A stretch of 64,000 nucleotides of DNA from Closterium sp. NIES-65 (taxonomy: Eukaryota; Streptophyta; Zygnematophyceae; Desmidiales; Closteriaceae). Within the stretch, counting starts at the first letter, position 1. The number at the start of each line of letters is the position of its first letter. Positions 34,791 through 57,337 of the stretch are shown piece by piece. The position numbers and the translations under genes are program-made. The DNA lies in assembly GCA_948144175.1 (NCBI GenBank), contig CANXME010002579.1:1-64000 (forward strand), read 5' to 3'. The notes beneath the pieces are model-generated. The model did no database searches and was not told where the DNA came from. It saw only the letters and a program-made list of their open reading frames with translations.

Positions 34791-35092
34791 GCCCGGGGAG
34801 GGACTGGGGGTGGCGGGTGTGGGGGTGATGGGTGATGTGTGGTCTCCCCTTCCCATCCTCCTCCGTTTGCCCCCCTCTGCTGCTCCTGCAGCAGTGTGGG
34901 GGGGAGGGGGAGGGGGAGGGTGAGGGGATGTAGGGGGTGACCAACCAGAACCTACCACCTCCTCTCCTCTCTCTCCCTCTCTCTCTCCTCCTCCTTGCCT
35001 GCCCTCTCCCGTTCTGCTGCGCACTCTGCCTCGTGTACCCCATTATGGGGGCGTTGACTGCACATTCTTCCCTACAGGCACTTATGGGGGCG

Positions 35093-35122
35093 TGTCAGAA
35101 TAATATATAATTCTATATATTG
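35093..35122 (+). repeat. LARD-1 3' LTR remnant (30 bp)
   Basis: It matches the first 30 bp of the 5' LTR (TGTCAGAATAATATATAATT...) and ends at TATATATTG. The following AGATATTCGCC belongs to RVT-1. Confidence 0.85.
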
Positions 35123-37080: not shown

Positions 37081-37365
37081 TTAGTTACCATCCGCTTTTC
37101 CCCCAAAACTCGAGCGGTACATATTCCCCAGTTGCGAACCGCGTCGTACTGGGTTCACCTCCCGCACTTTTCGCCAAACAAGCGTGCGACTGTCGTGAGT
37201 GGTGGTGACAGCGTCACGTAATGCTCCTTGAATCACACCATCCCATCCCATGTCTGGGCGAATGTTACCATACCGAGATCCATGCCGACGAATTCGGCTT
37301 CGACCCGCCAAACTGGACTTACCTGGACCAAGCCAAATCCCCGTCAGGGCCAAATCACCAGTCAA
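37081..37365 (-). other. Open frame upstream of RVT-1, in the same frame
   Basis: 94 codons, separated from the RVT-1 frame only by a TAA at 37081-37083. It might be the decayed N-terminal extension of RVT-1. No motif is recognised, so it could equally be chance. Confidence 0.3.
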
Positions 37366-37875
37366 ATTCTTCCCTTCAATGGCTCAGCCGAACCGAACGA
37401 AGAGAGTTTGTGCCGAGCCGAAGGACGTGCCCAGGCCAGACAAACCTTCAGGATTATCCCTGAGTCCAAACCAGCAGGCAGCCCGAACCAGACTCAAACC
37501 TGGAAAATGCTGGTCGTTGCCAGTGCTATGTGCCGTCGATTACATGGCGAGTGAGCCTTCCCAGTCAGTCCCTACTGGCAATGGCGATTCCAGAATACCA
37601 AGGTCGGCAGCATGAGGCAAATCTCCTAGCTTGCCTTCCTTTCCGGCATTACTGCTGAAACGTGATTCCGTAAGCAGCATCTTTGGAAATCAATGGAACT
37701 GATCGCCTCGCAGCTGTCTAGGATCACCACATCCTGCCAGCTGGCCGGCATCCGTCTTACGAGCTGTACGTTAGCGTGTTATTTATTTTGACTGACAACT
37801 TAATGCGACATTATTTATTATTCCTCCGGGCCACGTTATCGTCCTCGAATCAAGTGCGTCGCTCGATATAATCAC
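37366..37875. other. Intergenic region upstream of the fucosyltransferase-like gene
   Basis: No gene recognised. Near the host start codon there are AT-rich motifs (TTATTTATTTTGAC near 37785 and TATTTATTATTCC near 37812) that could contain a core promoter. CGATATAATCAC directly precedes the ATG. These are guesses from composition only. Confidence 0.35.
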
Positions 37876-40765
37876 ATGGGTCCCGCCGTGGTGGTGAAGG
37901 ACCCGGCGAAGATCCGGCAAGAGCGTCCCACTCGCTTACAGTCACAATCCCTCCCATGCACTCACCTTCGCTCACCCCCAGGCGCTCACTCGCACAGTCT
38001 GTCGCAAATTCCTCCCCAGACTCGTTCGCACACGATTTCGCACGTTCACCCGAGTTCGCACAGCAAGACGAGACATCAGCATCGAGGGTGGATTTCGAGT
38101 CTGTGTGGTAACAATCTCAATATAGTCACATGGTCTGCGATTTTCTTCGCAGCCTTCCTTTTTCATCTGCTCGGGCATACGAAACTCCACGAACCGGGTA
38201 ACTCTATCGCGAAGCTTTCACACCTGACTGTAGACGGCGAAATCCAACCAGGGTCTGAGGATAAGAATAAAGAGACCGATACAGAATCTGCGCCGGAAAG
38301 CGCGCAAAACGAGGTTCACATCAGCTACGGCGGGGATCGGCTTACAGAACCAACGGCTGAGATAAGAAAGAGATGGCTAGCTGCGAATTCCGAGGACGAA
38401 AGGCCCGGAAAATCCGGGAGAGGAAGGACCGAAGGCAGGCACGTGGAGGGAGAAGTTGGAGGGGATAGTTCCGTTCCGATTCCTGGCCGGATTAATAAGG
38501 CGGAGGGGACACAAGCGGATGGCGGGAAAGAGGGGCGCGTGGGGAAACAGGAGGAGGAGCGGAAAGAGGAGGACGAGGAGGGGAGTGGTAGCAGTTCTCT
38601 GGAAGAGCGGGTGAATGCGATTGACGGCAGTGGGGGAGAGCAAGCGGAGGAGCGTGGGGGAGTAAATGGGAGTGAGGACAGAAGGGAGCACGGGGACTGG
38701 GAGGGGGATGGGCGGGAGGAGGATGGGCGGGAGGATGGGCGGGAGGAGCAGCTCGCAATGGTTGGCGCTATGCTGGAGGGTGGGTGGCCGGGGCAGGAGA
38801 TATCTTGGCGGGATGCGGGAGAGCTGTGGCCTAGGCTTGGCAAAAGGGGGAGTGCTGTGCGGAAAGGAGGATTCGAGGGGAAGGGGGGAAATGAGGGGGA
38901 AGGGGAGGTTGAGACGGCAGGGGTAAGTGACCGGGGGAGATTTGACAGTGGCGCTCAGGGGAAGGCGGAAGCGGAAGGGGAGGTTGCGGATGCGGGGGGT
39001 TCAGTTGGGGGGAAGGGGGACGAGGAGAGCGACGAAGTGGAGGAGGGGGAGGCGGAGAAAGGGAAGGGGGAAGGGGAAGGGGAAGGGGAAAGGGAAGGGG
39101 GCATGAAAGTTGAAGGGGATGGGGAGGGGGAAGGGGAAGCGGAGGAAGGGGAAGAAACAAGAATTCAGGGAGTAAGGGGAGAGGTGAGAGTTAGAAGAGT
39201 AGGGGAAGGCCTGGGTAGAGTGAAGGCCGGGGGGGATGTGGAAGGCGGGGAGAGTGGTGAGCGAGAGAGGAGGGATGGGGAGGAGGAGGATGGAGAGGGT
39301 GGGGAGGAGGAGGGAGAGGGCGGGGAGGAGGAGGGAGAGGGCGGGGAGGAGGAGGGAGAGGGCGGGGAGGAGGAGGGAGAGGATGGAGAAGAGAAGGAAG
39401 AGAGTGCAGAGGAGGAGGGTGAGGGTGGGGAGGGCGGGTACGAGGGAGAGGATTACTATGAAAGACGAGGCAAAGAGGACGAGGAGGGCGAGGGGGAAGA
39501 AGGGAAGGAGGATGATGGGAAAGAGCTCACGGAGGGGGCTTTAGGTGATGATGAACGGGAGCGAGCAGGGGAAGGGAAAGGGGGACTGGATGATCATGAT
39601 CTTGGGGAAGAGGTGAAGGGGGAAGAGGAGAAGGGGGAATATGAGAAGGAACTTGTGGAAGGGGGATCAGGGAAAAGGGAAAGAGAAGGCGAAGGGGAAG
39701 GGAAAGGGGGGCTCGATGATTATGATATTGGGGAAGAGGGAGAAGAGGAGGATGGGGAGGAGGAGGAGGAGGAGGAGGAGGAGGAGGAGGAGGAGGAGGA
39801 GGAGGAGGAGGAGGAGGAGGAGGAGGAGGAGGAGGAGGAGGAGGGTGCGGAGGAAGAAGGGGAGGAGGGAAGCGAGGGGGGCGGTGGGGGGTATAGCAGG
39901 AGGAACACTGGGAGGGGTCATGAGGGAGAGTCGGAAGAAGGGGGAGTGGGGGCGAGAAAGAGCAGCAATGTGGGCGCGCAGAGTGTTAAGGAGGCAAAAG
40001 GGGAGGCAGAGGGGGAAGCAGAGGAAGAAGCGAAGTTTGAGATACAGAAAACAGGGGAGGAGGCGGGGGGAGCAGAGGAGGAGGAACTAGAAGACGATTT
40101 GGAAGAAGCGGGGTTTGGGGCGGGACGGGGTGGCAGCCGCAGTGGCAGCCGCAGTATGGGCGACCTGGGCAGTCTCATTGACTTGAAGGGAGTGGGTGCA
40201 GACAAGGAGGCGGGGGAAGCCGAGGAGGAGCAACTAGACGATGATTTGGAGGAAGCCGTGTTCGGGGCGGGACATGGTGGCAGCCGCAGTATGGGCGATT
40301 TTGGCAAGCTTGTTGGGCTGCAGGGAGAGGGTGCAGACAAGGTGCGAAGCAAGCCCAAGGTAAAGCCGGCGAGTGGGAAGGCAAAGAAGAAAAAGAAGGC
40401 AGACCGAGACAAGGAGAAGAAAGAGCGGCTGAAGGCTCTGTGGAGGATGCGACATGCAGCAGCAGGAGGAGGAGGAGGAGGAGGAGGAGGAGTAGGAGGA
40501 GGAGGAGGAGGAGGAGGAGGAGGAGGAGGAGGAGGAGGAGGAGGAGGAGGAGGAGGAGGAGGAGGAGGAGGAGGAGGAGGAGGAGGAGGAGGAGGAGGAG
40601 GAAGAGAAGATGCCTCTGAGCCGCCCTTTGACCCGCCGGAGCCGAGGTGGAGGCCCGACAAGGCGTGTGCCAACGTGGCAGAGATGGGCGAGGCAACAGC
40701 TGGCAGCACCGATGTGGCTAGTCTGAAGCTGCGGCGAATGATTGAGCGACACCTGGTGGTGCACG
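37876..40765 (+). CDS. Fucosyltransferase-like gene, exon 1: anchor and acidic stem
   Basis: It encodes residues 1-963 plus one base. The N-terminal 80 residues are Ser/His/Arg-rich and cytosolic in a type II model. NIVTWSAIFFAAFLFHLLGH is the membrane anchor. The rest is low complexity: Glu/Gly/Lys-rich repeats (EEGEGGE, 39270-39385), an uninterrupted Glu tract from (GAG)n at about 39756-39841, a twice-repeated block with GAGxGGSRSMGD (40080-40340), a Lys-rich patch (AKKKKKADRDKEKKER) and about 46 Gly from (GGA)n at 40464-40602. The donor is CACG|GTGGGT. ATG 37876 is the first in the frame. Long minus-strand Pro/Ser frames here are shadows. Confidence 0.65.
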
Positions 40766-43700
40766 GTGGGTGATGATGCTTCTCGTCCTGCCATGTGCTG
40801 GCGTGGCGTGCTCCTCCTCTCCTCTGCACACATCTCTTTGTAGGTCTGTTAACTTCCTTATCCACTATCCCTGGTTTCACCCCCAACTCCCTCTCCCTTG
40901 CCCCCTGCCCTCATCTCCTCCCTGTTTTTTTCTCTCACCCCATCATCCTGTGCGCAGCGGGGTTTTGTGTTGGGATATGAGCTGGGCCGAGCTCAGCTCA
41001 CCCCATCATCCTGTGCGCAGCGGGGTTTTGTGTTGGGATATGAGCTGGGCCGAGCTCAGCTCACCCCATCATCCTGTGCGCAGCGGGGTTTTGTGTTGGG
41101 ATATGAGCTGGGCCGAGCTCAGCTCACCCCATCATCCTGTGCGCAGCGGGGTTTTGTGTTGGGATATGAGCTGGGCCGAGCTCAGCTCACCCCATCATCC
41201 TGTGCGCAGCGGGGTTTTGTTTTGGGATATGAGCTGGGCCGAGCTCAGCTCACCCCATCATCCTGTGCGCAGCGGGGTTTTGTGTTGGGATATGAGCTGG
41301 GCCGAGCTCAGCTCACCCCATCATCCTGTGCGCAGCGGGGTTTTGTGTTGGGATATGAGCTGGGCCGAGCTCAGCTCACCCCATCATCCTGTGCGCAGCG
41401 GGGTTTTGTTTTGGGATATGAGCTGGGCCGAGCTCAGCTCACCCCATCATCCTGTGCGCAGCAGGGTTTTGTGTTGGGATATGAGCTGGGCCGAGCTCAG
41501 CTCACCCCATCATCCTGTGCGCAGCGGGGTTTTGTGTTGGGATATGAGCTGGGCCGAGCTCAGCTCACCCCATCATCCTGTGCGCAAGCACGAGGAGCTC
41601 CTGTGTTTTCACGAGAAGCTGGGGTACGACCTCTACAAAATCGAGGTGCTGCAGGGTGTTTTTGAGAATTCTCAAAAGCTCCTGTGTTGGGGCACGAGAA
41701 GCTGGGGTACGACCTCCACAAAATCGAATTTTGAGTCGACTCAAAATTCCACTTTTATATGTGCATTTTTCTTTTGAGAATTCCCGAAAGTAAAATCCAC
41801 ATAGCGCAAGCAGGAGAATCTGGGGTACGACATTTACAAAATCCTCACAGGCCCTCCCTCTCTCTGTCTTCCCTCTCTTCTCCTTCCCTCTGTCTTCTCT
41901 CCTCTCTCTTCCTTCCTGTGCCTTCCCCCCGCTGACTTCCCTCCTGTCTCTTCCCCCCCTCCCGACTCCCTGTCCCTGCAGGTGCCTCTGCCCTGCGTGC
42001 GCTGCCGGCTCACGAGTTTTGTCAGAGGAGCTTTGTGTTGGGATATGGCAAGCACGAGGGGCTAGGGTAGGGATCAACCTGTACAAGATCCTCACTGCAC
42101 CACCCACTCGCGTTTCCCCTTGTCTCTCCTCCCTCCTGTCTCTTCCCTTCTTTCTCTTCGCTCCTGTTTCCTCCCCTCTCTCTCTTCCCTCCTCTCTCCC
42201 CCCTCCTCCCTACCAGGCGCCTCTGCCCTGCGTGCGCTGCCGGCTCACGAGTTTTGTCAGAGGAGCTTTGTGTTGGGCTATGGCAAGCACGAGGGCTTAG
42301 GCAACAACCTGTATAAGATCCTCACGGCTCCGGCTCTTGCTCTCATGCTCAACCGCTCCATTATCGTGGGCGAGAACTAGTGAGTTGGTGGGGTGTTGCA
42401 GGGTGGGCTGCGGTGAGGTACGGTGGGGTCTGGTGGGGTGGGCGGTGGTGAATCGCGGTGAGGTGGGGAACACCCTCTACAAGATCCTCACAGGCCTGGC
42501 TCTTGCTCTCATGCTCAACCACTCTATTATCGTGGGCGAGAACTAGTGAGTGATCTGGGTTAGATGTGGTGGGGCGTGGTGGGCTGTGGTCGGGTGTGGT
42601 GGGGTGGACTGCGGTGAAGTGCGGCAGGGTCTGGTGGGGTGTGCAGTGGTGAAGTGTGGTGGGCTGGGAAATAATGTCTACAAGATCTTCACAGCCCCGG
42701 CTCTTCCTCTCATGCTCAACCACTCTATCATCATGGGCGAGAACTAGTGAGTGATGTGGTAAGGTGCGGTGGTGTGGGCTGCGGTGAAGTGTGGCGGGGT
42801 CTGGTGGGGTGGGCAGTGGTTATGTGTGGTGGGCTGGGGAACAACCTCTCTGAGGTCCTCACAGCCCCGGCTCTTGCTCTCATGCTCACCCGCTCTGTTA
42901 TTTTCACCGACAACTGGTGAGTTGGTGGGGTGTTGTAGGGTGGGATGTGGTGAGGTGCAGTGGGGTGCGGTGGGGGAACAATCTCTACAAGATCCTCACG
43001 GCTCCAGCTCTGGCTCTCATGCTCAACTGTTCCATCAATGTGGGAGAGAAAGTGTGAGTCATGATTGCGAGGCGTGGTGGGGTGTGGTGGGGTGTGGTGG
43101 GGTGTGGTGGGCTCACTTGTCCAGCCCGCGTTTTTCCCCTGTGCTTCCCACCGTCCTCCTTTTCCTTACCCCCCCAGTGGCACGCGGCCACTGATAGAGA
43201 GCAACAAGACGGTGGGGCAGCGGCTATGAAAGGACTATCTCGCCTTCTCCCCAGAAGTATTCTCCATGCTCGAGTTGAGGCACCTCTGGCACCACCACAC
43301 GGGCAACTGCTGCTGCCGCTGCTGACCACCGGTCGACACCACTCACCACCCATCTCTGCCTCTCCCCTCTCGTCCCAACCTCCCTCCAATCATTCCTCCA
43401 CCCCCAGTGGCACGCGGCCACTGATGGAGAGCAACAAGACGGTGGGTCAGAGGCTGTGGAAGGACTATCTCGCCTTCTCCCCAGAAGTATTCTCCATGCT
43501 CGAGTTGAGGCACCTCTGGTATCAGCATGACTGCGAGCGGCGCTACAGGCGGCCTCTGGTGGTCAGGACGGACTCTTTTGCCAACCGGGCGAGATCACGC
43601 ACGATGTGTGATGATTGGTCCACGTGGAGGGAACCCATCATCTGGTGCGTGCATGCTAGAGAGCATCTCTTTGAGCAGCACTTTTGAGCAGCACTTTTGA

Positions 43701-46700
43701 GCAGCACTTTTGAGCAGCACTTTTGAGCAGCACTTTTGAGCAGCACTTTTGAGCATCTCTTCTCAAAAGCACCATCATCGTTGCTAGAGAGCATCTCTTT
43801 GAGCGGTGCTACAGGCTGCTTCTAGTTGCCAACCGGGCAAGATCACGCACGCTGTGTGATGATTGGTCCACGTGGAAGGAGCCCATGTGTGATGAGTCGA
43901 TTCTCTAGTCGATTTTCTAGTCGACTCATCACACGTGGATGGAGCCCATTATCTCGCGAGCCACACCAGTGAGTGAGAGCAACCAGTGGAATGAAATTGT
44001 TGCATTCGATTGGTTCACAGGGAAGAAACGTACGGGGAAAGCATGCGTTTCATTCCATGAAAAAAAAGAGCATGATTAAGTACCGCACTAGATCTGGTGA
44101 TTTTCTATTTCTTGGGAAATCATGCGTTTCATTCCATCCTTTCCCCTCTTCTTCTCCCTTCCCCTCACCGCCCTCCCTCTTCTTCCCCTCACCGCCCTCC
44201 CTCTTCTTCCCCTCACCGCCCTCCCTCTTCTTCCCCTCACCGCCCTCCCTCTTCTTCCCCTCACCGCCCTCCCTCTTCTTCCCCTCACCGCCCTCCCTCT
44301 TCTTCCCCACTCCCTTGCACGCTCCCCTCGAGTTTGGCCCTCCGTCCCTCCCCACCTCCCTCCCTCCCTGTGATCTCTCACCCTCCCTCTCACCCTCCCT
44401 CTCACCCTCCCTCTCACCCTCCCTCTCACCCTCCCTCTCGCCCTCCCTCGCACCTTCCTTCCTGCTCCATATCTCCCCCCTCCAGTCTGGACGATGCATT
44501 GGACTCGGTACCCATTCAGGCATTTCTCAAGAACCTCCATCCAGCCATGCGGGAGAGAGCACAGGCCATCATGGGCGTGCCTTGGGACCCCAACTCTCGC
44601 CCCAACGTGTTTGGGAGATTGCCTGTTTCAAACCTCTCACCCTTCCTTCCCTTGAGTTCTCCCCTCCCCCACTCCAGTTTTGATGATGCATTAGACTCAG
44701 TGGGCATCCAAACCTTCCTCAAGAACCTCCATCCCACCATGCGGGAGAGAGCACACGCCATCATGGGCTCCTACTGTCCTTCCCCTGCGTTCCCCCCTCC
44801 CCCACTCCAGTTTCGACGATGCATTAGACTCAGTGGGCATCCAAACCTTCCTCAAGAACCTCCATCCCGCCATGCGGGAGAGACCCCAGGCCATCATGGG
44901 CGTGCCCTGGGACCCCAACTCACGCTGCAATCCCAGTCCCCCTTTGGTTCTTTCCTCCCTCGCTCCTTCCCTCTCCAGTTTCGATGATGCGTTGGATTCA
45001 GTGGGAATTCAAACCTTCCTGAAGAACGTCCACCCATCCATGCGGGAGAGAGCACAGGCCATCATGAGCGTCCGTTGGGACCCCAACTCCCGCCCCAACC
45101 TCTTTGGGGAGATGCGCTCACCCTTCCTTCCCCCGCGTTCTCCCCTCACTCCCACCAGTTTTGATGATGCACTGGACTTAGTGGGCATTCAAACCTTCCT
45201 CAAGAACCTCCATCCGGCGATGCAGGAGAGAGCACAGGCCATCATGGGCGTGCCGTGGGACCCCAACTCGCGCCCCAACCTGTTCGGGGAGATTGCGCGC
45301 GTGCTGCTGCTGCTGCCCACGCCCTATCCCTTCTTGTCTCCTCCCCCCTCCCTCTCACCTTCCTCCCCTTCCTCCCCTTCCTCCTCCAGTTTTGATGATG
45401 CATTGGATTCAGTGGGCATCCAAACCTTCCTCAAGAACCTCCATCCCGCCAAGCGGGAGAGAGCACACGCCATCATGGGCGTGCCGTGGGACCCCAACTC
45501 GCGCCCCAACCTGTTTGAGGAGATGGCGCGCGTGCTGCTGCTGACTTTTGAGAATTCTCAAAAGTCACTCCGATCGCGCGCGTGCTGCTGCTGCTGCCCA
45601 CGCCCTATCCCTTCCCGTGTCCTCCCCCCTCCCTCTCACCTTCCTCCCCCTTGGTTTCCTCCTTCCCTCTCACCCTTCCTCCCCTTCCTCCCCTTCCTCC
45701 TCCAGTTTTGATGATGCATTAGACTCAGTGGGCATTCAAACCTTCCTCAAGAACCTCCATCCGGCGATGCGGGAGAGAGCACAGGCCATAATGGGCGTGC
45801 CGTGGGACCCCAATTCGCGCCCCAACCTGTTTGGGGAGATTGCGCGCGTGCTGCTGCTGCCGACGCCAGCAGTGGCGGAGGCAGTGAGATGGGCGCTGGG
45901 GAGCGGAGGGAGGGACGCTGATGTGGTCATTCACTTTCGGCACGGCGGGTGAGTGGCTTGGATTTGCTTGCTATGTTGTTCCCAAGGTTGGGGTTGCCGT
46001 GGGCTGCTGTGTGTTGGTGTGGGCGCTGGGGAGTGGCAGGAGGGACGCAGATGCGCTCATTCACTTCTGCGCGGCGGGTGAGTGGCTTGGATTCGCTTGC
46101 TACGTTGGTGCCAAGGTTGGGGTTGCCGTCGGCGGATGCAGTGAGGTGGGCGCTGGGCAGTGGAGGGATGCCGACGTGGTAATTCATTACCGCCACGGCG
46201 GGTGAGTGGCTTGGATGTGCTTGCTGTGCTGGTGCCACGTTTGGCTTGGGTTGGCGTGGGTTGGCTTGGGTTGGTGTGGGTTGATATGGGTGGAATGGGA
46301 AAGGGATGGGTGGAATGGGAAAGGGATGGGTGGAATGGGAAAAGGAGAGGAAGTTTGTTTGGCGCTGGCATGGCGGCGGTGAGTTGGGGCGTGGGCTGGT
46401 GCTGTTATTAGTGAACAGGTGGGCTGCGAGTAAACACTTTTAAGAATTCTCAAAAGTGATTTCAATATTAGTGAACAGGTGGGCTGCGAGTAAACACTTT
46501 TGAGAATTCTCAAAAGTGATTTCAATATTAGTGAACAGGTGGGCTGCGAGTAAACAGAAGTGTTTTGAGACGTCTCAGATCGTATCCCCAGCAAGTGTCA
46601 AGAGGGGCTAGTGTCATGACACCAACTCGAAAACACATGGAGGACTATCCCTCCTGGTGTCAGCTAAACCAACCAATGAGATCGCGGGAAATCGTCCAAT

Positions 46701-49700
46701 GTGCCCAACATTGACACCAGGCTGGAGCCGCGCTCACACGCGGCTCCACTTGGTGTCAACCGTAAACAACGCTTGACACCAAGCCTTTCTTGACACTTGC
46801 TGGAGAGACGACCTCAAAACACTTCAGTTTGCCGCTGGCATGGCGGCGGTGAGGTGGGGCGTGGGCTGGTAGATGATGGGTGATGGGGCATGTGTCGGCA
46901 TGGGTTGGGTGTGTTGGTGCGGACTGGCAGGCCAGACTCTTCGTATCGTGCGTGGGATGCCAACAATCATGTGTGGGTGGGACTCGTTTCGTTGCTCCCC
47001 TTTCCACCCACAGGCTCTATAGCGCTGCATGCCCGTTTTCTATGGGTTTTAATGGGGGAGCTTCATTCCTCTCCCCCCTCTTCCTGCAGGCTGGAATCCG
47101 TGGCTTCTGCGGCGGCTCTGTGTCTTAAAAAGGCACTGGAGCACATTCACAGGGTGAAGCAGCAGGACGAGCAGCAGAAGGAGCAAGCAGACGCACTTGA
47201 AAGAATACAAACGGTAGCAGCAACAGAAGCAGCACTGCCAGCACCAACAGCAGCAACGGGTGGAGCGGCATCTGTAATTACTGTAGCGTCTGGAGTAGTA
47301 TTCGCAGGGCCAGCAGGAACAGGAGGAGGTGAAGCAGTTGCAGCGATGAGACCAACAGGTGTTGGTGCAGGCAGCATGGGGAGTAGGTTGCTGGCGTGGG
47401 GGAAGGGGAGAATTCGGTGGGGCGGAGGCAGACGATTGCTGGAGACAGAGGGTAGAGGAGAGGGTGGTGGAGAGATAGAGATGGGTGGAGAAGGGGAGGA
47501 GGTGGGTAGAGAAAGGGGTGGAGGACGGGAGGAGGAGGGCAGAGGAGGAGAGGGGATGGGTGGAGGGGAAGAGGAAGGTCAGTTGGAGCGTGCGAGTGTG
47601 CGTCGTGACTCGGTGGTGGTGCTGCAGAAGCAGAAAGGGGGAGGAGGGAAGGGCAAGGGCAAGACAACGACTTTTGAGGCGCCTCAAAATCTGGAGCGTG
47701 CGAGTGCGCGTCGTGCGAGTGTTTTTGATGCGGTGGTGGTGCAGAAGCAGAAAGGGGGAGGAGGGAAGGGCAAGGGCAAGACAACCAAGGGAAAGACGAA
47801 GAAGGGAAAAACGAAAGTAGGAAAGACGAAAACGGGGAAGACAAAGAAGGGAAAGCCGGGGAAGGCGAAATCGGGGAAGGCAAAGACGGGGAAGAGGGTG
47901 AAGTGGACTCAAGGACAGAAGAAGGCGGCTGGGGATGAGGATGAGAAAGGAGGGAATAAGGAAGGAGGGAGCGAGAACAAGACAGCAGGGAGCAAGAAAG
48001 CGGCGAGCGATAAGGACAAGCTGAGGGTGGTGGTGGTGGCGGATCATCCAAGCGTGTTCCGCAAGATAGGTGCACTGACGTCCGACTTTGCAAAGGTGGG
48101 TCTACTGTGCCGCTCTTTGCAAAGGTGGGTCTACTGTGCCGCTCCTTGCCTTTCCAACCGATAAGAATATTGGCAGGCCTTAGTTTGAGTCGGCACACGA
48201 ATTTGCGGATCACCCAAGCGTGGTGCGCAATATAGGCGCAGGATAGGCGCAAGATAGGCGCAAGATAGGCGCAAGATAGGCGCAAGATAGGCGCAAGATA
48301 GGCGCAAGATAGGCGCAAGATAGGCGCAAGATAGGCGCAAGATAGGCGCAGGATAGGCGCAGGATAGGCGCAAGATAGGCGCGAGATAGGCGCAAGATAG
48401 GCGCAAGATAGGCGCAAGATAGGCGCATGATAGGCGCAAGATGGGCGCAAGATAGGCGCAAGATAGGCGCAAGATAGGCGCATGATAGGCGCAAGATAGG
48501 CGCAAGATAGGCGCAAGATAGGCGCATGATAGGCGTGCTGACTTTGCCAAGGTGGGTGAACCGTGCTGCAAAGGAGGTAGCACTCTCCCCGCACCTCTCA
48601 AATGGCCCGTGTATTAGCTGAAGGGTGGTACAAAGGTTTGAAGCAGACACATGCAAACTAGGCAAACAAGCAGACCTATCAACCATCACCTACTCCCCTC
48701 CCCTCCCCCCGCTGTCCGACCCTAGTGGTCGGACGGGGGCTCGATCAGCTGGTGCAGCTGCCCCTCGTTGAGAGGGGCCCACGGCCCTTGCAGGCTGAGC
48801 TCGTCCGCCTCCAGGGCCTCGTTGGTCTTGGTGCGGAGGGCATTTGCCTGTGCCCTCTGGAGGCACACGCTCCAGCGCTGGCGGTACTCCGTCAGCAGCT
48901 TGGCAGCCTCTCGAGAGGTAGGGGCTGCGTTGTAGCGGAGCTTCGCAGCCAGCTCCGCGCACTGCCGCAGGTAAGCCAGTACCCCCGGCGACGGGTAGCC
49001 GTAGGTCTCCACGGCCAAGGCGTGGAACCCCACCCACGCATTCCGTCCCGCATATTTCTCCTCCTTCCGAGCAGCTGCCGCCCTAGCCGCCCAACCAGGT
49101 GCGCGGTTGCAGTTCTCGTCCTGGAAGGACACTGGGTCGGTCCCTTCACTGGGTGAAGGCACAGAGGGCCCCTTAAATAGGCTCAGAGGGAGTTTCATTT
49201 TTGGCGGAGAGAGAGCGAGAGAGAGAAGGCCTTAGCATCCAGCCCTCTCCCTCTTCCCTCTGCCCTCTCCCTGTGAGCCTATTTAAGGGGCCCTCTGTGC
49301 CTTCCCGGCCTCATTATTTCGTGGGTATTTCGTAGAGGCCGGCCCAGAGCCCTTGGCGAAATCGCAGGAGCCTGTTCATATTTGCGCTCCAGTCAGGCTT
49401 ACGAGCTGACGAGGAGCGAAGAAGTAAGCGAGGGAGGAAGGTGAGTAACATCCAGCCAGGTTCTGACTCGGGGTTGGCTGCCAGGTGGAGTAACGGTGTC
49501 AGCAGGCAAATCGCGAAAGACTCGCAAAGGTCTTTTGGAGGGTGGCGGGCGACTGGGGGTTGGCGACTATCTCGCAGCGGGCCAATGTCCCAGTCGGCAA
49601 CCTGGGCGAACAGGTCAGTATTTTTCGCCAGGTCGTCGGGTTTGAGCATTGGGGGGGTCGGAATTGGGGCTGCTGAATTCTCATTGGCTGTCGCAGAGTC

Positions 49701-52700
49701 AACTCCAGTCTCTGTCGCGGCTCGATTTCCCCTCCTTGCGTGATTTCCCCCCGCGGCTCGGTTCTGAGCTGTGGTTCGGTTGGCAGGTTCGCCTCGGACA
49801 TTTGGGCTGGGGAGCTCCTCTCCTCGAAGCATAAGTTCCAACTCCTCCTCGTCCTCCTCAGCTTCTGCCCCCAACATCCCCTCTCTTTCAGGGTTAAAAG
49901 CAGGGTCACCCTCGTCACTTTCCTCATTCTCCACTTCCCCCTCTGCCTCCTCGCTAAGCGGTTCCTCGCCGCCCTCCGCGCCGTTTCGCATCAGCCTTTC
50001 CGCATTTCTCGCGTAGCCGCTTGCACCTGTGCGGCGCCTGTTTGAACCTCGTGTTCCACCACCTCTTCGTCCTCTCTCGTTACCTCGTCGTCCGCGGCGG
50101 CTGCCGCGTCCTACGCGGATTCCACGCGTTGCTCTTCCAACAGCAGCTCCCTCGCGCCCTGTCTGCGGCGCCGCGACCGTCTCGTTTTCGCTTCGTCGGC
50201 GCGCTGGCGTCGGCTGCGGTACGATCGGGGGTGATGGACCCATCCGCGAGACGGGATCCGGAGCTGGAGGGTTCCGCGGAGAGCGCGCTGCCGCAGCCTG
50301 CGCCTGCCGGGCCTCGTCCGCGTCTCCTTGCGCATCCCTCCGCAAGCGAGCCCGTTCGCCGCTTCGAGCGGGTGCAAACACTTCCCCATCGGCCTGCCGC
50401 GCGCCTCACCTCGCCGGAGTATTCGTGGGCGCCTGCACGTGTTGCGTCGAACCGCCCGGACGGTCAGCCGCGGCATGAGCGCGGGTGCTCGCCTCCGCGT
50501 CAGCCTCCTCGGCCGCCCTCTCCTCGCCGCCCTTCTCCTGAGCATCGCGAGCACTATCAGCGCGGGGAGGGGGGTCAGCGTTCCCCTGCACGTCCTCGCT
50601 CTCCTCGCCGCCCATCCCCTCGTGGTCAGGCAGGCCAGCGCTCACCCCGAGCGCGATCCCCCGCGCAACGCTCTCCGCGGCGATCTCCGGCGACACGGGG
50701 GAGGGGGTCGCCTGGGCGTCGCTGGGATTCGGGTCGCCGCGAGCAGTCCCCCCCGCGTCCACATTCGGCTGGTTCCGGGGGACGGCGGGGCTGGCGGAAA
50801 GGCGGAGGGCGAGGCGGGAATGGCAACCAGCCGGATCCTGCCCTCGATCGCGCTGCGGACACGTTCGTGGAGGTGGTGAGGCAGGCCCGGGCGAGTGGGG
50901 CGCCGACTCACGTCCACATTGAGGTGACCAACGGTCCCCCCTTCGCCGCGGACCCCGGCCAGGTTGCTCCTCTGCGCGCGCCGACGCTGCGCGAATATCA
51001 GCCCGCGCGTGGGGGAAGGGCTCAGTTCCGCACCCCCCGTCAGGTTCCCGGCTTCCCTGCGCCGCGCTTATCTGTTGGCCGGACTCCAGGCTGGCCGGCG
51101 GCGTTTCCGCGCGAAGCGCTGACTGCACCTCCCCCCACTCGCGCGGGGAGAGACCCCATGCTGACGATGTGCCGGATTTTGAATCTGGCGGAGGCGTGCG
51201 AGGTGGTGGCGAACTTGCAGCTGGCGGTGTGTGGGGCCACGCGGAGCTTTCCGAGCAGTTTCGGTCCAGGGTCCCGAGGATCCTGCTTGACTTTGGCAGA
51301 ATCGCTGGAGTCGCCGTTGGCACCCGTGTCGGATGCGCCCGCCGGGGTAGCTCCCTTAGCCCGTACTTTCCCCCGCCACGTGGGGGATCTTGTAGGGGCT
51401 GCTCAAGCCGGGACCCCCTTGGACACGCTCCAGTCGTCGGCGCATCTCCTTCTTGCAGTATCGGCGTGCAAGCGCTCGATGCTTGAGGTGGAGGGGGCGG
51501 AGCCGTACACGATGTAGGCCTCCGCCGCGTGTAGAATTGCATGCCGCGCCTCTTGCTCTTGCCCAGCTCCTTGCCTTTGTGTGTGTGTGTGCCCTTTATA
51601 AGCCGAACCCACGTTTTGTGTCTTGCCACCAGGAACGCGCGGCCGAAGGCCGCCGGCGCGAGCCGCCGAAAATGAAACACCCACGAAATAATGAGGCCGG
51701 GAAGGCACAGAGGGCCCCTTAAATAGGCTCAGAGGGAGAGGGCAGAGGGAAGAGGGAGAGGGCTGGATGCTAAGGCCTTCTCTCTCTCGCTCTCTCTCCG
51801 CCGAAAATGAAACACCCACGAAATAATGAGGCCGGGAAGGCACAGAGGGCCCCTTAAATAGGCTCAGAGGGAGAGGGCAGAGGGAAGAGGGAGAGGGCTG
51901 GATGCTAAGGCCTTCTCTCTCTCGCTCTCTCTCTGCCGAAAATGAAACACCCACGAAATAATGAGGCCGGGAAGGCACAGAGGGCCCCTTAAATAGGCTC
52001 AGAGGGAGAGGGCAGAGGGAAGAGGGAGAGGGCTGGATGCTAAGGCCTTCTCTCTCTCGCTCTCTCTCCACCGAAAATGAAACCACCCACGCATTCCGTC
52101 CCCGCACCTCTCTGTCTCCCTTCACACCATTCTCCCCTCACCGCACCCTCCACCCTCCCTTACTTCGTTTTCCCTTCGCCGCATTCTTGCCTCACCTCAT
52201 TATTCCCTTCACCAGTTTCCCGTCCTTTTTCGGCTACCCCTCTCACCAAACTTGGTCCCTTACCCACTTCATCCCCCCCTCTCCCTCTCTACTCTTCCCC
52301 CCCCCACCCCCCTTTACTCCCCGGCGGTTAGATCATTTGTTTCGATCATGCCAAGTTGTGCGCCCACACCCGGAAAACCCCCTCCCACCAAACTTGGTCC
52401 CTTACCTGCTTCAATTGCCTCCCTCCCTATTCTCCCCCCTTATCCTCCCCCTCCCCCCCCCCCCATCAGATCATTCGTTTCGACAATGCCAAGTTTGTGC
52501 GCCGACACCCAGAGAGCCCCCTCGCACCACTTTCCCATTACCCACTGCATCCCGCTTCCCTCCCTATCGTTCCTCCAGTTTTACTCCCCCGCCCATCAGA
52601 TCATTCGTTTCGACCATGCTAAGTTCATGCGCCGACACCCAGAGAGCCCCCTCGCACCAAACCTCGTCCCTTACCCACGTCATCCCGCTACATCCCTATT

Positions 52701-54609
52701 CTTCCCCCTTATCCTTCCCCCCCCCCGCCCATCAGATCATTCGTTTTGACCATGCTAAGTTCGTGCGCCGACACCCGGAAAGCCCTCTTGCCTCTGCAAA
52801 GAACAAATCAGTAAGCAGCAGCACTACCGAGCTTCAGCATACTTTCACCATCCTATGAGTAGACTTAAAATACACATAGACACCCGGAAAGCCCTCTTGC
52901 CTCTGCAAAGAACAAATCAGTAGGCATCAGCACTACCGAGCTTCAGCATCCTTTCACCATCCTATGAGTAGACTCAAAATACACATAGACACCCGGAAAG
53001 TCACCTGGAAAGGGCATCACCTCTGATGCGTCAATTTGCAACCTCTGAAAGAACACTGCTAAAAATTGTAACAACGTTGTAATAGCCTTTCAACAACTTC
53101 CCAGCAACTCTTTTTTTTTTTCTGTGCTCTCTTCTCTCTCTCTGCATTCTCCTTCCCTTCCCTCGCAGCTCCCATCCTTCCGAGTGCGAGACTGGGGCCC
53201 CCTGCCCCGCTGGGTGGCATTGGTCGACTTCTTCCTTGCCGCCCGGGCGCGCTACGCCTTCATTTCTGCAGGGCGATCAAGGGTCTTCACCACCTTCTCT
53301 CAGCTCGCTGCCTCTCTCGCCGCTGCCAGGAGCCTAGGTGAGTCCCTGGTAGGGTGTGGCTGCTCGGTGATTGTGCAATTGTCGTTCTGTCTTCACCACC
53401 TTCTCTCAGCTCGCCACTTCCCTCGCTGCTGCTGCCAGGAGCCTAGGTGAGCCGCGCTATGAGGTAGAGGATCCCACCACCTGGTCAAAGGGGCGTGGTA
53501 AGGCAGTGCGCTCGTACAATCGCTGCTCGAAAGTCTTCAGCACCTTCTCTCGACTCACTACCTCTTTAGCCTCTTTCAGGGTGACTCATTCTCATGCTCT
53601 CGCTTTCCCCGCCCCGATCCCTCTCCCTGTTCCCCTTCCCCTCCACCTCCCACCACCCCCCTCATCTCCCTGCCAAAGACACCCTCTCCCCTTCGTCATC
53701 CCACTTCCTCCTTCTAAGCGCCTGCTTCTTGCAGCTGCTGGAGAATGAGTTGGCCAAGCAGGGGGGGAGGGGCCACGCCTAGCACATTCTCATTCTCACT
53801 CTCTCCCTTTCCCTGCTTTCTATTCCCCATCCTCCTTTCCAATGTCCTCCCCCTTCCCACTTACCATTCTACTGATGACACCCCCTCCCCTCAAGCATCG
53901 CGCTTCCTCCTGCTAAGCGCCTTCCACTCGCACCTACTGGAAAACGGTTTAGCCAACCAGGGGGGGAGGGGCCACGCCTGGAACACCTTCTCAGGCCGCC
54001 TCTCCTGCCCCGCCCAGCCTCTCCTGCCCCGCCCGACCCCTCCTATGTGCCCTCTCCTCCTCTCACACTGCCGCTTTCTCACCCTCTCGCTTTTCCTGCT
54101 TTCTCTCTCCCCCCATTTTCCCCCCGTTCCCCTCACCAGAGGACACCCCCTCCCCTCAAGCATCGCGCTTCCTCCTGCTAAGCGCCTTCCACTCGCACCT
54201 ACTGGAAAACGGTTTAGCCAACCAGGGGGGTCGCGGCCACGCCTGGCACACCTTCTCTGGCCGCCTCTCCTGCCCCGCCCAGCCCCCCCAGTGCGCCCTC
54301 TCCCCCGCCCTGCCCTATGCCTGGTGGGACGCGCCCTGGCAGTCCCCTGCGCGGGGGGAAGGGGGGAAGCTGAGGCGGTTGGGGCTGCAGGTGGGGGAAA
54401 GGGGGGAGGTGGGGGAGGAGGCTGTGGAGAGGTTTTGTGAGAGGCGGAAGGGGGTGGCTGTGAGAGTGAAGCTAGAGATGGGGCTGATAGGGGGAGGAGA
54501 GGAGGGAAAGGGGGAGAAAAAAGGGAGGGGGGAGGGTGAGAAGGGGAAGGGGGAAAAGGGGAAGGGGAAGAAGGGGGAGAAAGGGACGAAGAAGGCAATT
54601 CAGAGATGA
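37876..54609 (+). CDS. Putative alpha-1,6-fucosyltransferase-like type II membrane protein, 8 exons, about 1743 aa
   Basis: I join 37876-40765, 42217-42379, 43408-43644, 45706-45948, 47090-48095, 52736-52810, 53169-53337 and 54161-54609. Every junction has GT donor and AG acceptor, phases run 1, 2, 2, 2, 0, 0, 1, and there is no internal stop. The product has a signal anchor (about residues 82-100), a long acidic stem, then the catalytic-looking part: GHEGLGNNLYKILTAP-type GxGN loop, VIHFRHGG (H-x-R motif of GDP-fucose enzymes), VVVVADHPSVFRKIG, RVRDWGPLPRWVALVDFFLA, and a C-terminal YAWWDAPWQSP. This combination is what I know from plant proteins annotated alpha-1,6-fucosyltransferase. A Golgi location is inferred. 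Introns hold many partial copies of the exons. Function is untested and family assignment is from memory of motifs. Confidence 0.68.
40936..41585 (+). repeat. 63-bp minisatellite carrying the exon 2 acceptor, about 10 copies
   Basis: The unit reads CACCCCATCATCCTGTGCGC then AGCGGGGTTTTGTGTTGGGA then TATGAGCTGGGCCGAGCTCA. CAG|CGGGGTTTTGTGTTGGGATA mimics the exon 2 segment RSFVLGY. At 63 bp it is frame-neutral, so two overlapping plus frames stay open for over 250 codons (21-residue repeat with GFVLGYE). It lies in intron 1. Confidence 0.88.
41586..42070 (+). repeat. Degenerate exon 2 copies in intron 1
   Basis: At least three short fragments resemble KHEGLGNNLYKI: near 41586-41645, 41692-41728 and 41807-41855 (GAAGCTGGGGTACGACCTCT-type sequence). 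A longer copy from an intact acceptor at 41981 reads ASALRALPAHEFCQRSFVLG then loses frame at GLG. Palindromes at 41660-41677 and 41726-41749 separate the fragments. Confidence 0.75.
42217..42379 (+). CDS. Fucosyltransferase-like gene, exon 2: GxGN loop
   Basis: Acceptor TACCAG|GCGCC, donor AACTA|GTGAGT. It reads ASALRALPAHEFCQRSFVLG then YGKHEGLGNNLYKILTAPAL and ALMLNRSIIVGEN. The GLGNNLYK segment looks like the N-terminal nucleotide-sugar fold start of fucosyltransferases. It is the only copy in the region with both splice sites intact; at least nine partial copies surround it. Confidence 0.65.
42466..43055 (+). repeat. Four partial exon 2 copies in intron 2
   Basis: Copies at about 42466-42545, 42660-42748, 42836-42917 and 42973-43055 read variants of GNNLYKILTAPALALMLN. 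Two or three still end in GAGAACTA|GTGAGT, a usable donor, but have no proper acceptor. They are separated by GGTGGGGTGTGG-like repeats. Confidence 0.8.
43178..43330 (+). pseudogene. Broken exon 3 copy
   Basis: An intact acceptor is followed by GTRPLIESNKTVGQRL, a TGA, then KDYLAFSPEVFSMLELRHLW. It ends before the CERRYRRPL part and has no donor. Confidence 0.78.
43408..43644 (+). CDS. Fucosyltransferase-like gene, exon 3
   Basis: Acceptor CCCCAG|TGGCAC, donor ATCTG|GTGCGT. It encodes GTRPLMESNKTVGQRLWKDY, then LAFSPEVFSMLELRHLWYQH, DCERRYRRPLVVRTDSFANR and a Trp-rich end (DDWSTWREPIIW). The complete copy follows a broken one at 43178, which has TGA in place of the Trp of RLWKDY. Confidence 0.65.
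43665..43945 (+). repeat. 13-bp repeat, exon 3 3'-end copy and hairpin in intron 3
   Basis: CACTTTTGAGCAG is repeated about six times (43677-43752) and closes on an inverted CTCAAAAG (43763-43770). Then comes a degraded copy of exon 3 (GGTGCTACAGGCTGCTTCTA ... GATGATTGGTCCACGTGG, about 43795-43880). Then TGTGATGAGTCGA (43888-43900) pairs with TCGACTCATCACA (43921-43933). Confidence 0.75.
44150..44480 (+). repeat. Pyrimidine-rich minisatellites in intron 3
   Basis: About seven copies of a 23-24-bp CTCACCGCCCTCCCTCTTCT-type unit (44155-44310), then about six copies of a 12-bp CCCTCTCACCCT unit (44375-44450). They extend the pyrimidine tract before the first exon 4 copy. Confidence 0.85.
44486..45600 (+). 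repeat. Six truncated exon 4 copies upstream of the real exon 4
   Basis: Copies start after CAG acceptors at 44486, 44678, 44811, 44979, 45159 and 45390. Each opens (F/L)DDALDSVGIQTFLKNLHP and breaks off at a different point after the acceptor (for example after IMGSY, DPNSRC, LFGEM or ARVLLL). None has the donor. All keep a pyrimidine tract and AG, so each is a potential cryptic acceptor. Confidence 0.88.
45706..45948 (+). CDS. Fucosyltransferase-like gene, exon 4: H-x-R motif
   Basis: Acceptor CTCCAG|TTTTGA, donor CGGCGG|GTGAGT. It encodes FDDALDSVGIQTFLKNLHPA, MRERAQAIMGVPWDPNSRPN, LFGEIARVLLLPTPAVAEAV and RWALGSGGRDADVVIHFRHG. It is the seventh and only full-length member of a tandem series. 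VIHFRHGG resembles the H-x-R signature that binds GDP-fucose in several fucosyltransferase families. Confidence 0.68.
45985..46215 (+). repeat. Two copies of the exon 4 3' end
   Basis: Near 46019-46080 the sequence reads WALGSGRRDADALIHFCAAG followed by GTGAGTGG. Near 46146-46203 it reads WALGSG... VIHYRHGG followed by GTGAGTGG. Both keep the donor of exon 4 but no acceptor. Confidence 0.8.
46405..46557 (+). repeat. 60-bp tandem repeat containing palindromes
   Basis: The unit GTGAACAGGTGGGCTGCGAG plus TAAA, then a 24-bp palindrome (CACTTTTGAGAA and its complement), then ATTTCAATATTA. Palindromes are at 46435-46458 (one mismatch) and 46495-46518 (perfect). A third unit runs into the MITE-like element. 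Confidence 0.88.
46558..46824. mobile_element. MITE-like inverted-repeat element, 267 bp
   Basis: Outer arms AAGTGTTTTGAG (46558-46569) and CTCAAAACACTT (46813-46824) are flanked by CAG on both sides. Inner arms CAGCAAGTGTCAAGA (46589-46603) and its complement (46788-46802) are perfect 15-mers. Between them TGACACC/GGTGTCA recurs several times and GAGCCGCG pairs with CGCGGCTC. No coding. It may be a non-autonomous DNA transposon or a product of the local palindrome process. Confidence 0.65.
47090..48095 (+). CDS. Fucosyltransferase-like gene, exon 5: long low-complexity insert
   Basis: Acceptor CTGCAG|GCTGGA, donor GCAAAG|GTGGGT. It begins LESVASAAALCLKKALEHIH, runs through Gln/Ala, Gly/Glu and Gly/Lys-rich low complexity (TKKGKTK repeats near 47785-47900), and ends in ordered sequence LRVVVVADHPSVFRKIGALT then SDFAKV. 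A roughly 100-bp coding segment (QKQKGGGGKGKGKTT) is duplicated in frame around a palindrome at 47672-47689. The insert is likely a surface loop or alga-specific spacer, by inference. Confidence 0.65.
48096..48560 (+). repeat. Exon 5 3'-end copies and 11-bp minisatellite
   Basis: The donor segment TTTGCAAAGGTGGGTCTACT is repeated (about 48086 and 48115). Then GGATCACCCAAGCGTGGTGC (48207 on) copies the ADHPSVFRKIG coding sequence and runs into about 28 units of AAGATAGGCGC, ending in GTGCTGACTTTGCCAAGG then TGGGTG near 48560. So a second exon 5 end has been expanded internally by an 11-bp repeat. Confidence 0.85.
48722..49198 (-). CDS. Hypothetical 158-aa protein in the retroelement block of intron 5
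   Basis: ATG at 49198-49196 (MKLPLSLFKGPSVPSPSEGT). The body is helical and Ala/Arg/Leu-rich, with NAWVGFHALAVETYGYPSPG then VLAYLRQCAELAAKLRYNAA. It ends EPPSDH at TAG 48722-48724. Its N-terminus falls in the 135-bp repeat, and a second remnant of GRNAWV lies at 52085-52105, so it belongs to the mobile block rather than the host gene. No family recognised. Confidence 0.45.
   Translation of the reverse strand: MKLPLSLFKGPSVPSPSEGTDPVSFQDENCNRAPGWAARAAAARKEEKYAGRNAWVGFHALAVETYGYPSPGVLAYLRQCAELAAKLRYNAAPTSREAAKLLTEYRQRWSVCLQRAQANALRTKTNEALEADELSLQGPWAPLNEGQLHQLIEPPSDH
49157..49312 (-). repeat. Inverted copy of the 135-bp repeat
   Basis: CACAGAGGGCCCCTTAAATA (49159 on, plus) is mirrored by its complement ending near 49302. 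The body between matches, in reverse orientation, the tandem copies at 51661-52080. Confidence 0.75.
49314..50381 (-). pseudogene. Probable RVT-type element, N-terminal region (RVT-2)
   Basis: A 355-codon frame. The first 230 residues are Arg/Gly- and Glu-rich low complexity. The C-terminal 100 are ordered: LFAQVADWDIGPLRDSR, CESFAICLLTPLLHLA, GWMLLTFLPRLLLRSS and RFRQGLWAGLYEI. The FLPRLLLR plus F-x-x-G-x-W arrangement is what I know from the region preceding the polymerase domain in RVT-1-like elements. The frame ends where the 135-bp repeat begins, with no polymerase after it. Assignment is by memory of the pattern. Confidence 0.45.
50234..51517 (+). CDS. Hypothetical Arg/Ser/Pro-rich protein, gag-like
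   Basis: A 428-codon reading from ATG 50234 (MDPSARRDPELEGSAESALP). Residues 80-190 are SPRR/PRSP-rich, then GRRGWRKGGGRGGNGN. An ordered part follows (TFVEVVRQARASGAPTHVHI, MCRILNLAEACEVVANLQLA), ending EGAEPYTM at TAG 51515-51517. Basic linker plus helical domain suggests a retroelement gag-like protein, but GC-rich sequence is open on both strands here and this overlaps RVT-2 antisense, so either frame may be a shadow. Confidence 0.4.
   Translation: MDPSARRDPELEGSAESALPQPAPAGPRPRLLAHPSASEPVRRFERVQTLPHRPAARLTSPEYSWAPARVASNRPDGQPRHERGCSPPRQPPRPPSPRRPSPEHREHYQRGEGGQRSPARPRSPRRPSPRGQAGQRSPRARSPAQRSPRRSPATRGRGSPGRRWDSGRREQSPPRPHSAGSGGRRGWRKGGGRGGNGNQPDPALDRAADTFVEVVRQARASGAPTHVHIEVTNGPPFAADPGQVAPLRAPTLREYQPARGGRAQFRTPRQVPGFPAPRLSVGRTPGWPAAFPREALTAPPPTRAGRDPMLTMCRILNLAEACEVVANLQLAVCGATRSFPSSFGPGSRGSCLTLAESLESPLAPVSDAPAGVAPLARTFPRHVGDLVGAAQAGTPLDTLQSSAHLLLAVSACKRSMLEVEGAEPYTM
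51661..52080 (+). repeat. 135-bp tandem repeat, three copies
   Basis: CACAGAGGGCCCCTTAAATA starts at 51706, 51841 and 51976. Each unit also holds CCGAAAATGAAACACCCACG and CTCTCTCTCGCTCTCTCTCC. TTAAATA could act as a TATA-like site. An inverted copy at 49157-49312 bounds the other side of the block, as terminal repeats of a mobile element might. Confidence 0.88.
52332..52735 (+). repeat. Three exon 6 copies upstream of the real exon 6
   Basis: Starts at 52332, 52470 and 52600 after AG. They read IIRFDHAKFVRRHPESPLA with changes (one gives MPSCAPTPGKPP-type text in shifted frame) and then pass into C-rich intron without the GTAAGC donor. Confidence 0.8.
52736..52810 (+). CDS. Fucosyltransferase-like gene, exon 6 (25 codons)
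   Basis: Acceptor CATCAG|ATCATT, donor AAATCA|GTAAGC, phase 0 at both ends. It encodes IIRFDHAKFVRRHPESPLAS then AKNKS. It is the last of four tandem copies; the others at 52332, 52470 and 52600 have acceptors but lack this donor. Confidence 0.58.
52769..53010 (+). repeat. About 111-bp duplication of exon 6 3' end and intron 6
   Basis: ACACCCGGAAAGCCCTCTTG recurs at 52770 and 52881, and a third start is near 52990 (ACACCCGGAAAGTCACC). The second copy changes the donor to AAATCAGTAGGC. Confidence 0.82.
53169..53337 (+). CDS. Fucosyltransferase-like gene, exon 7
   Basis: Acceptor TCGCAG|CTCCCA, donor GCCTAG|GTGAGT. It encodes LPSFRVRDWGPLPRWVALVD, FFLAARARYAFISAGRSRVF and TTFSQLAASLAAARSLG. 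The pattern (W-x-x-x-PRW, then VDFFLA, then S-x-F/Y-x-QL) is the conserved C-terminal core of the plant family as I know it. Confidence 0.68.
53380..53585 (+). repeat. Two partial exon 7 copies in intron 7
   Basis: Near 53388-53444 it reads VFTTFSQLATSLAAAARSLG with donor GTGAGC. Near 53533-53580 it reads VFSTFSRLTTSLASF. Neither has the 5' part of exon 7. Confidence 0.8.
53713..54040 (+). repeat. Two partial exon 8 copies
   Basis: Copy near 53716-53780 (LLENELAKQGGRGHA, then TAG). Copy from 53896 (ASRFLLLSAFHSHLLENGLA, then GHAWNTFSGRLSCPAQP), ending before QCALSP. Both lack the signature C-terminus. Confidence 0.82.
54161..54609 (+). CDS. Fucosyltransferase-like gene, exon 8 and stop
   Basis: Acceptor CCTCAAG|CATCGC (a weaker AAG site). 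It encodes ASRFLLLSAFHSHLLENGLA, NQGGRGHAWHTFSGRLSCPA and QPPQCALSPALPYAWWDAPW, then QSP. The end is a charged tail rich in Gly/Lys/Glu. TGA is at 54607-54609. The Cys pair around the SC...QCALSP segment and YAWWDAPWQSP are the strongest family signature in the window. CopB-1 begins 103 bp downstream, so the 3' untranslated region may be altered. Confidence 0.68.
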
Positions 54610-54837: not shown

Positions 54838-55043
54838 CACCCCCATAGGCTAAGTGAGGGGCATCAAATCAAGCAAGGCGAGCACACGGTCACAAGACCA
54901 GTCAATGCAAGAAACAAGGCAAGCTCAGGGTGGATCTCAAGGACACCACACAAATTCCGAGCACATGAAAGTGGCCACAAGGCCAGTTCAAGGGTTCACT
55001 AGATTATAAATAGGAAACACAACAAGCAGAGCAAGAAACAAGA

Positions 55044-57303: not shown

Positions 57304-57337
<34 letters not shown>

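Follow-up and report, generated by a model that had tools for sequence, protein, structure and literature searches.

The window analyzed here is a 64-kb stretch of the Closterium sp. NIES-65 genome (bases 1-64000 of contig C2281, in an assembly totaling 874,075,685 bases), for which the assembly paper describes PacBio reads scaffolded with linked reads (PMC10407611). Between positions 37876 and 54609 lies a gene of eight exons whose joined coding sequence of 5253 nt is open throughout (1750 codons plus a stop). All seven introns are GT-AG and the phases agree at every join. Joined reading and a protein family match thus confirm the single stop-free path described in an earlier note on this DNA, although its length of about 1743 codons falls slightly below the actual count. 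The exons are as follows:

37876..40765, + strand: exon 1, mostly low complexity
42217..42379, + strand: exon 2, placed by the joined path, the DUF7810 match and the homologue alignment
43408..43644, + strand: exon 3, placed by the same three lines (joined path, DUF7810 match, homologue alignment)
45706..45948, + strand: exon 4, likewise placed by joined path, DUF7810 match and homologue alignment
47090..48095, + strand: exon 5, with a low-complexity insert and an in-frame duplication holding a palindrome
52736..52810, + strand: exon 6, placed by joined path and homologue alignment
53169..53337, + strand: exon 7, placed by joined path and homologue alignment
54140..54609, + strand: exon 8 with the stop codon, placed by joined path and homologue alignment

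The start codon is unsure because exon 1 is mostly low complexity, and by our reading the last ~45 codons of this exon (ACANVAEMG...) are similar to the beginning of the DUF7810 region in land plants. Exons 2-8, when joined, match Pfam DUF7810 (PF25102) at 499.9 bits (8e-150), far above the gathering cut-off of 27 bits. A 446-aa core query, consisting of the protein minus exon 1 and minus the low-complexity part of exon 5, returned 18 proteins at E ≤ 1 when the 8000 candidates sharing most words with it were scored, and all 18 carry DUF7810. The homology extends over the full domain, as named land-plant homologues (Selaginella, mosses, Genlisea) span 99-100% of the core at 40-44% identity. Closer protein matches come from Closterium sp. 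NIES-54 (96% identity) and Closterium sp. Naga37s-1 (77% identity over 64% of the query part). In a homologue alignment built without the window sequence, from 15 of the 18 core matches and the NIES-54 protein, the land-plant proteins show gaps of at most a few residues where exons 2-8 join, the exon 5 insert aside. This long insert is confined in the alignment to Closterium proteins, and the six joins of exons 2-8 are identical in the NIES-54 protein and in the window. No solved structure matches the gene's protein by sequence at E up to 1. Motifs of the protein such as GxGNxxYK and HFRHG may resemble those of fucosyltransferase-like enzymes. It is very probable that the locus is a functional nuclear gene encoding a conserved DUF7810 protein of plants and algae.

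The introns of this gene hold partial copies of the exons beside them. Each exon with 25-bp flanks was locally aligned to the adjacent introns, and once 13 of the 40 resulting rows were dropped as the exon's own flank, 27 partial copies remained. The partial copies reported earlier beside the downstream exons were thereby located, while none of 140 draws of shuffled introns (20 first-order shuffles of each of 7 upstream introns) reached the score cut-off. The arrays are arranged as follows:

40934..41586, + strand: minisatellite with 10.4 copies of a 63-bp unit, by eye similar to the start of exon 2
41596..42101, + strand: exon 2 5' pieces, with one long copy (41959-42101) that has AG and shorter pieces between ~41596 and 41890
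42466..43059, + strand: four exon 2 3' copies, each with GT
43171..43297, + strand: exon 3 5' copy with AG
43826..43886, + strand: exon 3 3' piece, its alignment stopping before the donor
44473..45543, + strand: six exon 4 5' copies, all with AG
46020..46225, + strand: two exon 4 3' copies, both with GT
48115..48569, + strand: three exon 5 3' pieces, two with GT, around an 11-bp minisatellite
52319..52655, + strand: three exon 6 5' copies with AG
52879..52944, + strand: exon 6 3' copy with GT
53389..53580, + strand: two exon 7 3' copies, one with GT
53678..54060, + strand: two exon 8 5' copies and a fragment, the alignments stopping short of the acceptor

The 11-bp minisatellite (28 copies, 48225-48535) looks by eye to be derived from the end of exon 5. 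The copies lie head-to-tail on the same strand and adjoin their source exon, which is the arrangement that marks tandem segmental duplication, and no whole-exon copies were seen at the locus. Eleven copies include the acceptor AG, 10 the donor GT and none both. The rule of one splice site per copy, as first proposed, therefore holds for 21 of the 27, whereas the alignments of the other six reach neither site (one each for exons 3, 5 and 7, and three for exon 8). For exon 2, where at least nine copies plus a minisatellite had been counted, alignment recovers one 5' and four 3' copies, and the short pieces and the minisatellite bring the total near that number.

Matches to the gene were found at two further places in its own genome, on contigs C761 and C1698. 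Over window positions 36001-53852, up to the contig end, C761 differs from the window by 13 mismatches in 17,823 bases and by 55 indels, none of them 10 bp or longer. It may represent a second assembly of one and the same locus, and so cannot serve as an independent witness for the copies. The C1698 locus stands further apart, with 77 mismatches in 16,764 aligned bases and 15 indels, of which 12 are at least 10 bp long. It has the same eight exons, open and encoding 1700 aa, and differs from the window by 16 synonymous and 9 nonsynonymous changes in 1696 codons. The order of the arrays is that of the window and the copy numbers differ: exon 4 has six 5' copies in the window and four in C1698, and C1698 lacks a 547-bp unit that spans the start of exon 4 and is linked to the window's two additional copies. 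Copies 1-4 of exon 4 pair one to one between the two loci (support 0.95-1.0 where printed), and the array thus predates the split of the loci. Size changes of at least 9 bp within exons are of the duplication type, sit in exons 1 and 5 and measure 21, 126, 9 and 15 nt, all four being multiples of three, compared with one of the eight intron size changes of at least 10 bp. Protein models from other Closterium strains appear to bear similar material. By our reading, parts of the Naga37s-1 model look like copies of exons 2, 3, 4, 7, and 8, with the exon 3 and exon 8 pieces in a shifted frame and the end of exon 1 reading into an exon 2 copy, and the NIES-54 model seems to start with an exon 2 copy.

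We consider it probable that the copies were left by frequent small tandem duplications filtered by selection, in a gene that still reads cleanly. Duplications of tens to ~550 bp would occur often around the gene. Those falling wholly within an exon would alter the protein and be removed unless in frame, while those crossing one exon edge would deposit a fragment of the exon, bearing a single splice site, in the adjacent intron without damaging the original. The single splice site per copy follows from this geometry, because a one-edge duplication leaves a full exon plus a partial copy. Later gains and losses would shift the copy numbers, and part of the duplications would be linked to a short palindrome between the two copies. 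To the exon path, the copies, the copy-number differences, the in-frame exon changes and the palindrome association, all directly observed, this reading adds selection, which would act as the filter, and the use of the true splice sites, which are presumably those of the full exons. The gene could then be regarded as a natural experiment in how much duplicated splice-site clutter is tolerable while one path is read.

The palindromes, on which the earlier note was silent, form a separate and more unusual lead, tied to a portion of the copies. The gene contains five perfect palindromes of the form TTTTGAG-NNNN-CTCAAAA, and no exact one occurs in the remainder of the 64-kb window:

41660..41677, no strand: palindrome with centre AATT, between exon 2 pieces 41596-41644 and 41677-41727
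41726..41749, no strand: palindrome with centre TCGA, between exon 2 pieces
45542..45567, no strand: palindrome with centre AATT and a 22-bp direct repeat, in the exon 4 array
46495..46518, no strand: palindrome with centre AATT, in a 60-bp intron array with a 41-bp direct repeat
47672..47689, no strand: palindrome with centre GCGC, in exon 5 between copies 47584-47668 and 47692-47785 (gapped alignment)

Genome-wide there are 30,327 such sites, compared with 4 for a reversed-letter control, and the TCGA-centred form accounts for 13,080 sites, compared with 0. Among 63 sites in 297,774 bases (the window and 24 stretches, many picked around known sites and two of them near-duplicates of the window) the centres are TCGA in 24, ACGT in 14, GCGC in 12, AATT in 9, and others in 4. 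Direct repeats within 120 bp on either side were found at 32 of 35 palindrome sites from 18 loci; random positions drawn from those loci had them in 284 of 1016 cases, and shuffled windows in 18 of 540. In these 18 loci, which were chosen for their palindromes, 15.4% of 175 kb lies in arrays of period at least 20, with none in the shuffle. Under a stricter ungapped test, in which the longest repeat length tried was 70, direct repeats of 16-70 bp immediately flank 35 of 58 sites, compared with 23 of 266 randomly chosen positions; setting later array members aside removes 12 of the 35 and gives 23 of 40. Two of the window's five palindromes pass this test (45542..45567 and 46495..46518), and for those at 41660, 41726, and 47672 the copies to either side emerge only if the alignment may be gapped or imperfect.

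Comparison between loci adds instances of presence and absence. C1698 has a 41-bp unit twice around a 24-bp palindrome-like linker where the window has the unit once and lacks the linker, and the palindromes at 41660, 41729, and 45546 fall in stretches absent from C1698. A portion of exon 5 that spans 33 residues in the NIES-54 protein spans 73 in the window, and this 40-residue difference corresponds to 120 nt made of one extra copy and the palindrome. Two sites elsewhere in the genome gave no empty counterpart: for the site on C9, a paralogue on C1759 has both palindromes, one of them decayed, and for the site on C6, three contigs that are identical where they overlap all carry the palindrome. 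A stretch of ~300 bp is identical on C6, C347, and C1658, from either recent duplication or redundant assembly.

The palindrome may be a cause of duplication, a companion of it, or the mark of a fragile place. A tentative reading, to which we give rather less than even chances, is that it is a tiny nuclear mobile element. Such a palindrome, 18 to ~36 bp long and built around any one of four self-complementary centres (TCGA, ACGT, GCGC, AATT), would arrive with a target duplication of 16 to 70 or more bp and seed tandem duplications genome-wide, including at exon edges and in coding exons, so lengthening introns and proteins. It would be remarkably small for mobile DNA of the nucleus, and the length of the repeats beside it would suggest a break-and-fill mechanism. 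The stronger proposal, that the palindrome itself inserts with a long target duplication and that most edge copies are such duplications with a decayed palindrome, we regard as unlikely. The excess of sites over the controls, the direct repeats that abut 35 of 58 of them (or 23 of 40), the doubled 41-bp unit of C1698 and the missing palindrome and copy in the NIES-54 exon 5 all speak for mobility. However, 23 of the 58 sites have no clean abutting repeat, three of the window's five among them (with gapped copies there), the C9 and C6 sites yielded no empty site, and no palindrome was seen between most of the exon 2 3', exon 4, exon 6 5', exon 7, and exon 8 copies. Neither viral nor prokaryote contigs contain a match to the 20-base form CTTTTGAGTCGACTCAAAAG, so no source is found there.

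Miniature inverted-repeat transposable elements (MITEs) have inverted repeats, a high copy number and a short target duplication of fixed length. The palindrome shares the inverted repeats (perfect and at least 18 bp), the high copy number and some presence/absence differences, but it has no interior apart from the palindrome itself, and its flanking repeats are variable rather than short and fixed, at 16-70 bp for 35 of the 58 sites and none clean at 23. A second likeness is to the short palindromic repeats of the Volvox carteri organelle genomes (PMC2670323), which as described there are likewise very short, present in many copies, capable of forming hairpins and located in intergenic and intron DNA. 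The Volvox repeats spread in the DNA of mitochondria and plastids, and that paper describes them as inert in the nucleus (PMC2670323). In contrast, the Closterium palindromes occupy ~30,000 sites in an 874-Mb assembly, often between long direct repeats, and those of the present gene lie in introns and in one coding exon; sites occur on contigs of up to 2.0 Mb. Work on the Closterium psl complex reports copy number variation and duplication-rich genomes (PMC10407611), which agrees with the present locus in algal group and in the abundance of duplication, but as far as that account goes it concerns whole-gene copies and tandem repeat genes, and the stem "palindrom" is absent from its main text. 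In the open-licence literature, no title among the matches listed concerned exon-edge copies or the TTTTGAG-NNNN-CTCAAAA palindrome in Closterium.

A different explanation for the persistence of the copies is that the arrays are retained as splicing regulators, for example to produce poison isoforms. When each of the 21 decoy sites is used singly with its true partner site, none gives an open frame, and 18 shift the frame. Since none reads through, the path is clean in the sense that the full exons alone stay open. Every decoy would accordingly lead to a stop, as a poison switch should, and all 21 copies that reach a splice site keep their AG or GT, compared with 16.7 expected from other positions in the same alignments (naive product 0.007). 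The excess is weak evidence, as the copies of one array have a common origin and an intact site is favored where an alignment ends close to a boundary; the intact decoys lean weakly towards constraint. The near-identical loci moreover differ in copy number, and we judge regulatory retention improbable.

More improbable still is a mechanism that targets exon edges and copies them. Copies do lie at or near 11 of the 14 internal exon edges (only the end of exon 1 and the starts of exons 5 and 7 lack them), as the earlier suggestion of repeated copying around exon edges would have it, and that suggestion also fits the copy numbers that vary between near-identical loci. However, many copies extend 80-155 bp into the exon, so that their breakpoints are distant from the splice site, and size changes internal to exons and to introns are present as well. 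Specificity for edges is also more than the data require. We simulated uniform tandem duplication, purged inside exons, with events that were intron-only or crossed one edge counted as tolerated. With ancestral introns of 120-500 bp, which are our estimates, 67.7% of tolerated events cross one edge; the share is all events for 100-bp introns, 94.5% for 150-bp introns and 47.8% for 500-bp introns. The edge bias thus requires no edge targeting, as the filter model suffices. In the same simulation 11 random one-edge events reach a mean of 7.8 of the 14 edges and ~20 events a mean of 10.8; because the observed 11 edges exceed the mean for 11 events and would take about 20, a mild edge preference is possible. 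The locus suggests that exon material can lengthen introns with no need for machinery that seeks out edges.

That the copies are an assembly artefact is scarcely credible: tandem copies are a classic assembly problem and C761 may be one locus assembled twice, but C1698, 77 substitutions apart, still shows the same array order, the protein model of another Closterium by our reading bears similar copies, and the exon changes keep the reading frame.

For filtered tandem duplication, our preferred reading, two other genes of the genome were also inspected, one with copies and one without. An Arp2-like gene on C1977 (5680200-5680800; the name is our reading of the sequence) has a 3' exon copy with the donor kept (141-column alignment), and C1734 shows the same pair of matches. 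By eye, a second piece of this exon lies further downstream. In an actin gene on C1739, a comparison at E up to 0.01 finds no direct repeat within the gene, and gaps of ~70-95 bp separate its exon matches. The habit is therefore neither confined to one gene nor universal. A PRP8-domain search gave matches on two contigs, in each case to a single large exon, and was uninformative on introns.

Tandem genomic duplication is a reviewed route of intron gain (PMC3443670), in which, as here, duplication of a gene segment adds splice sites within the gene. As set out in that review, duplication of an exonic AGGT gives rise to a new intron. At the Closterium locus, in contrast, existing edges were crossed and existing introns lengthened by partial copies with one site each; the window and C1698 have the same eight exons, and the copies sit in introns that both loci share.

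Several further features lie in or near the gene. A 239-bp insertion (46574-46812), which by our reading is MITE-like with inverted ends CCAGCAAGTGTCAAGA, splits a 30-bp palindrome that is intact in C1698. In intron 5, a stretch at 49030-52102 is bounded by a perfect 20-bp direct repeat, CCACCCACGCATTCCGTCCC, and has internal inverted repeats of ~140-144 bp; of three ORFs compared with Pfam there, none scores above a cut-off. Long ORFs at 4600-32400 and 55000-61000 read to us like Copia-type retrotransposon polyproteins. Just upstream of the gene, on the - strand, lies a reverse transcriptase ORF (RVT_1, 5e-16; 35082-36830), and the end of the NIES-54 protein model looks similar to its sequence.
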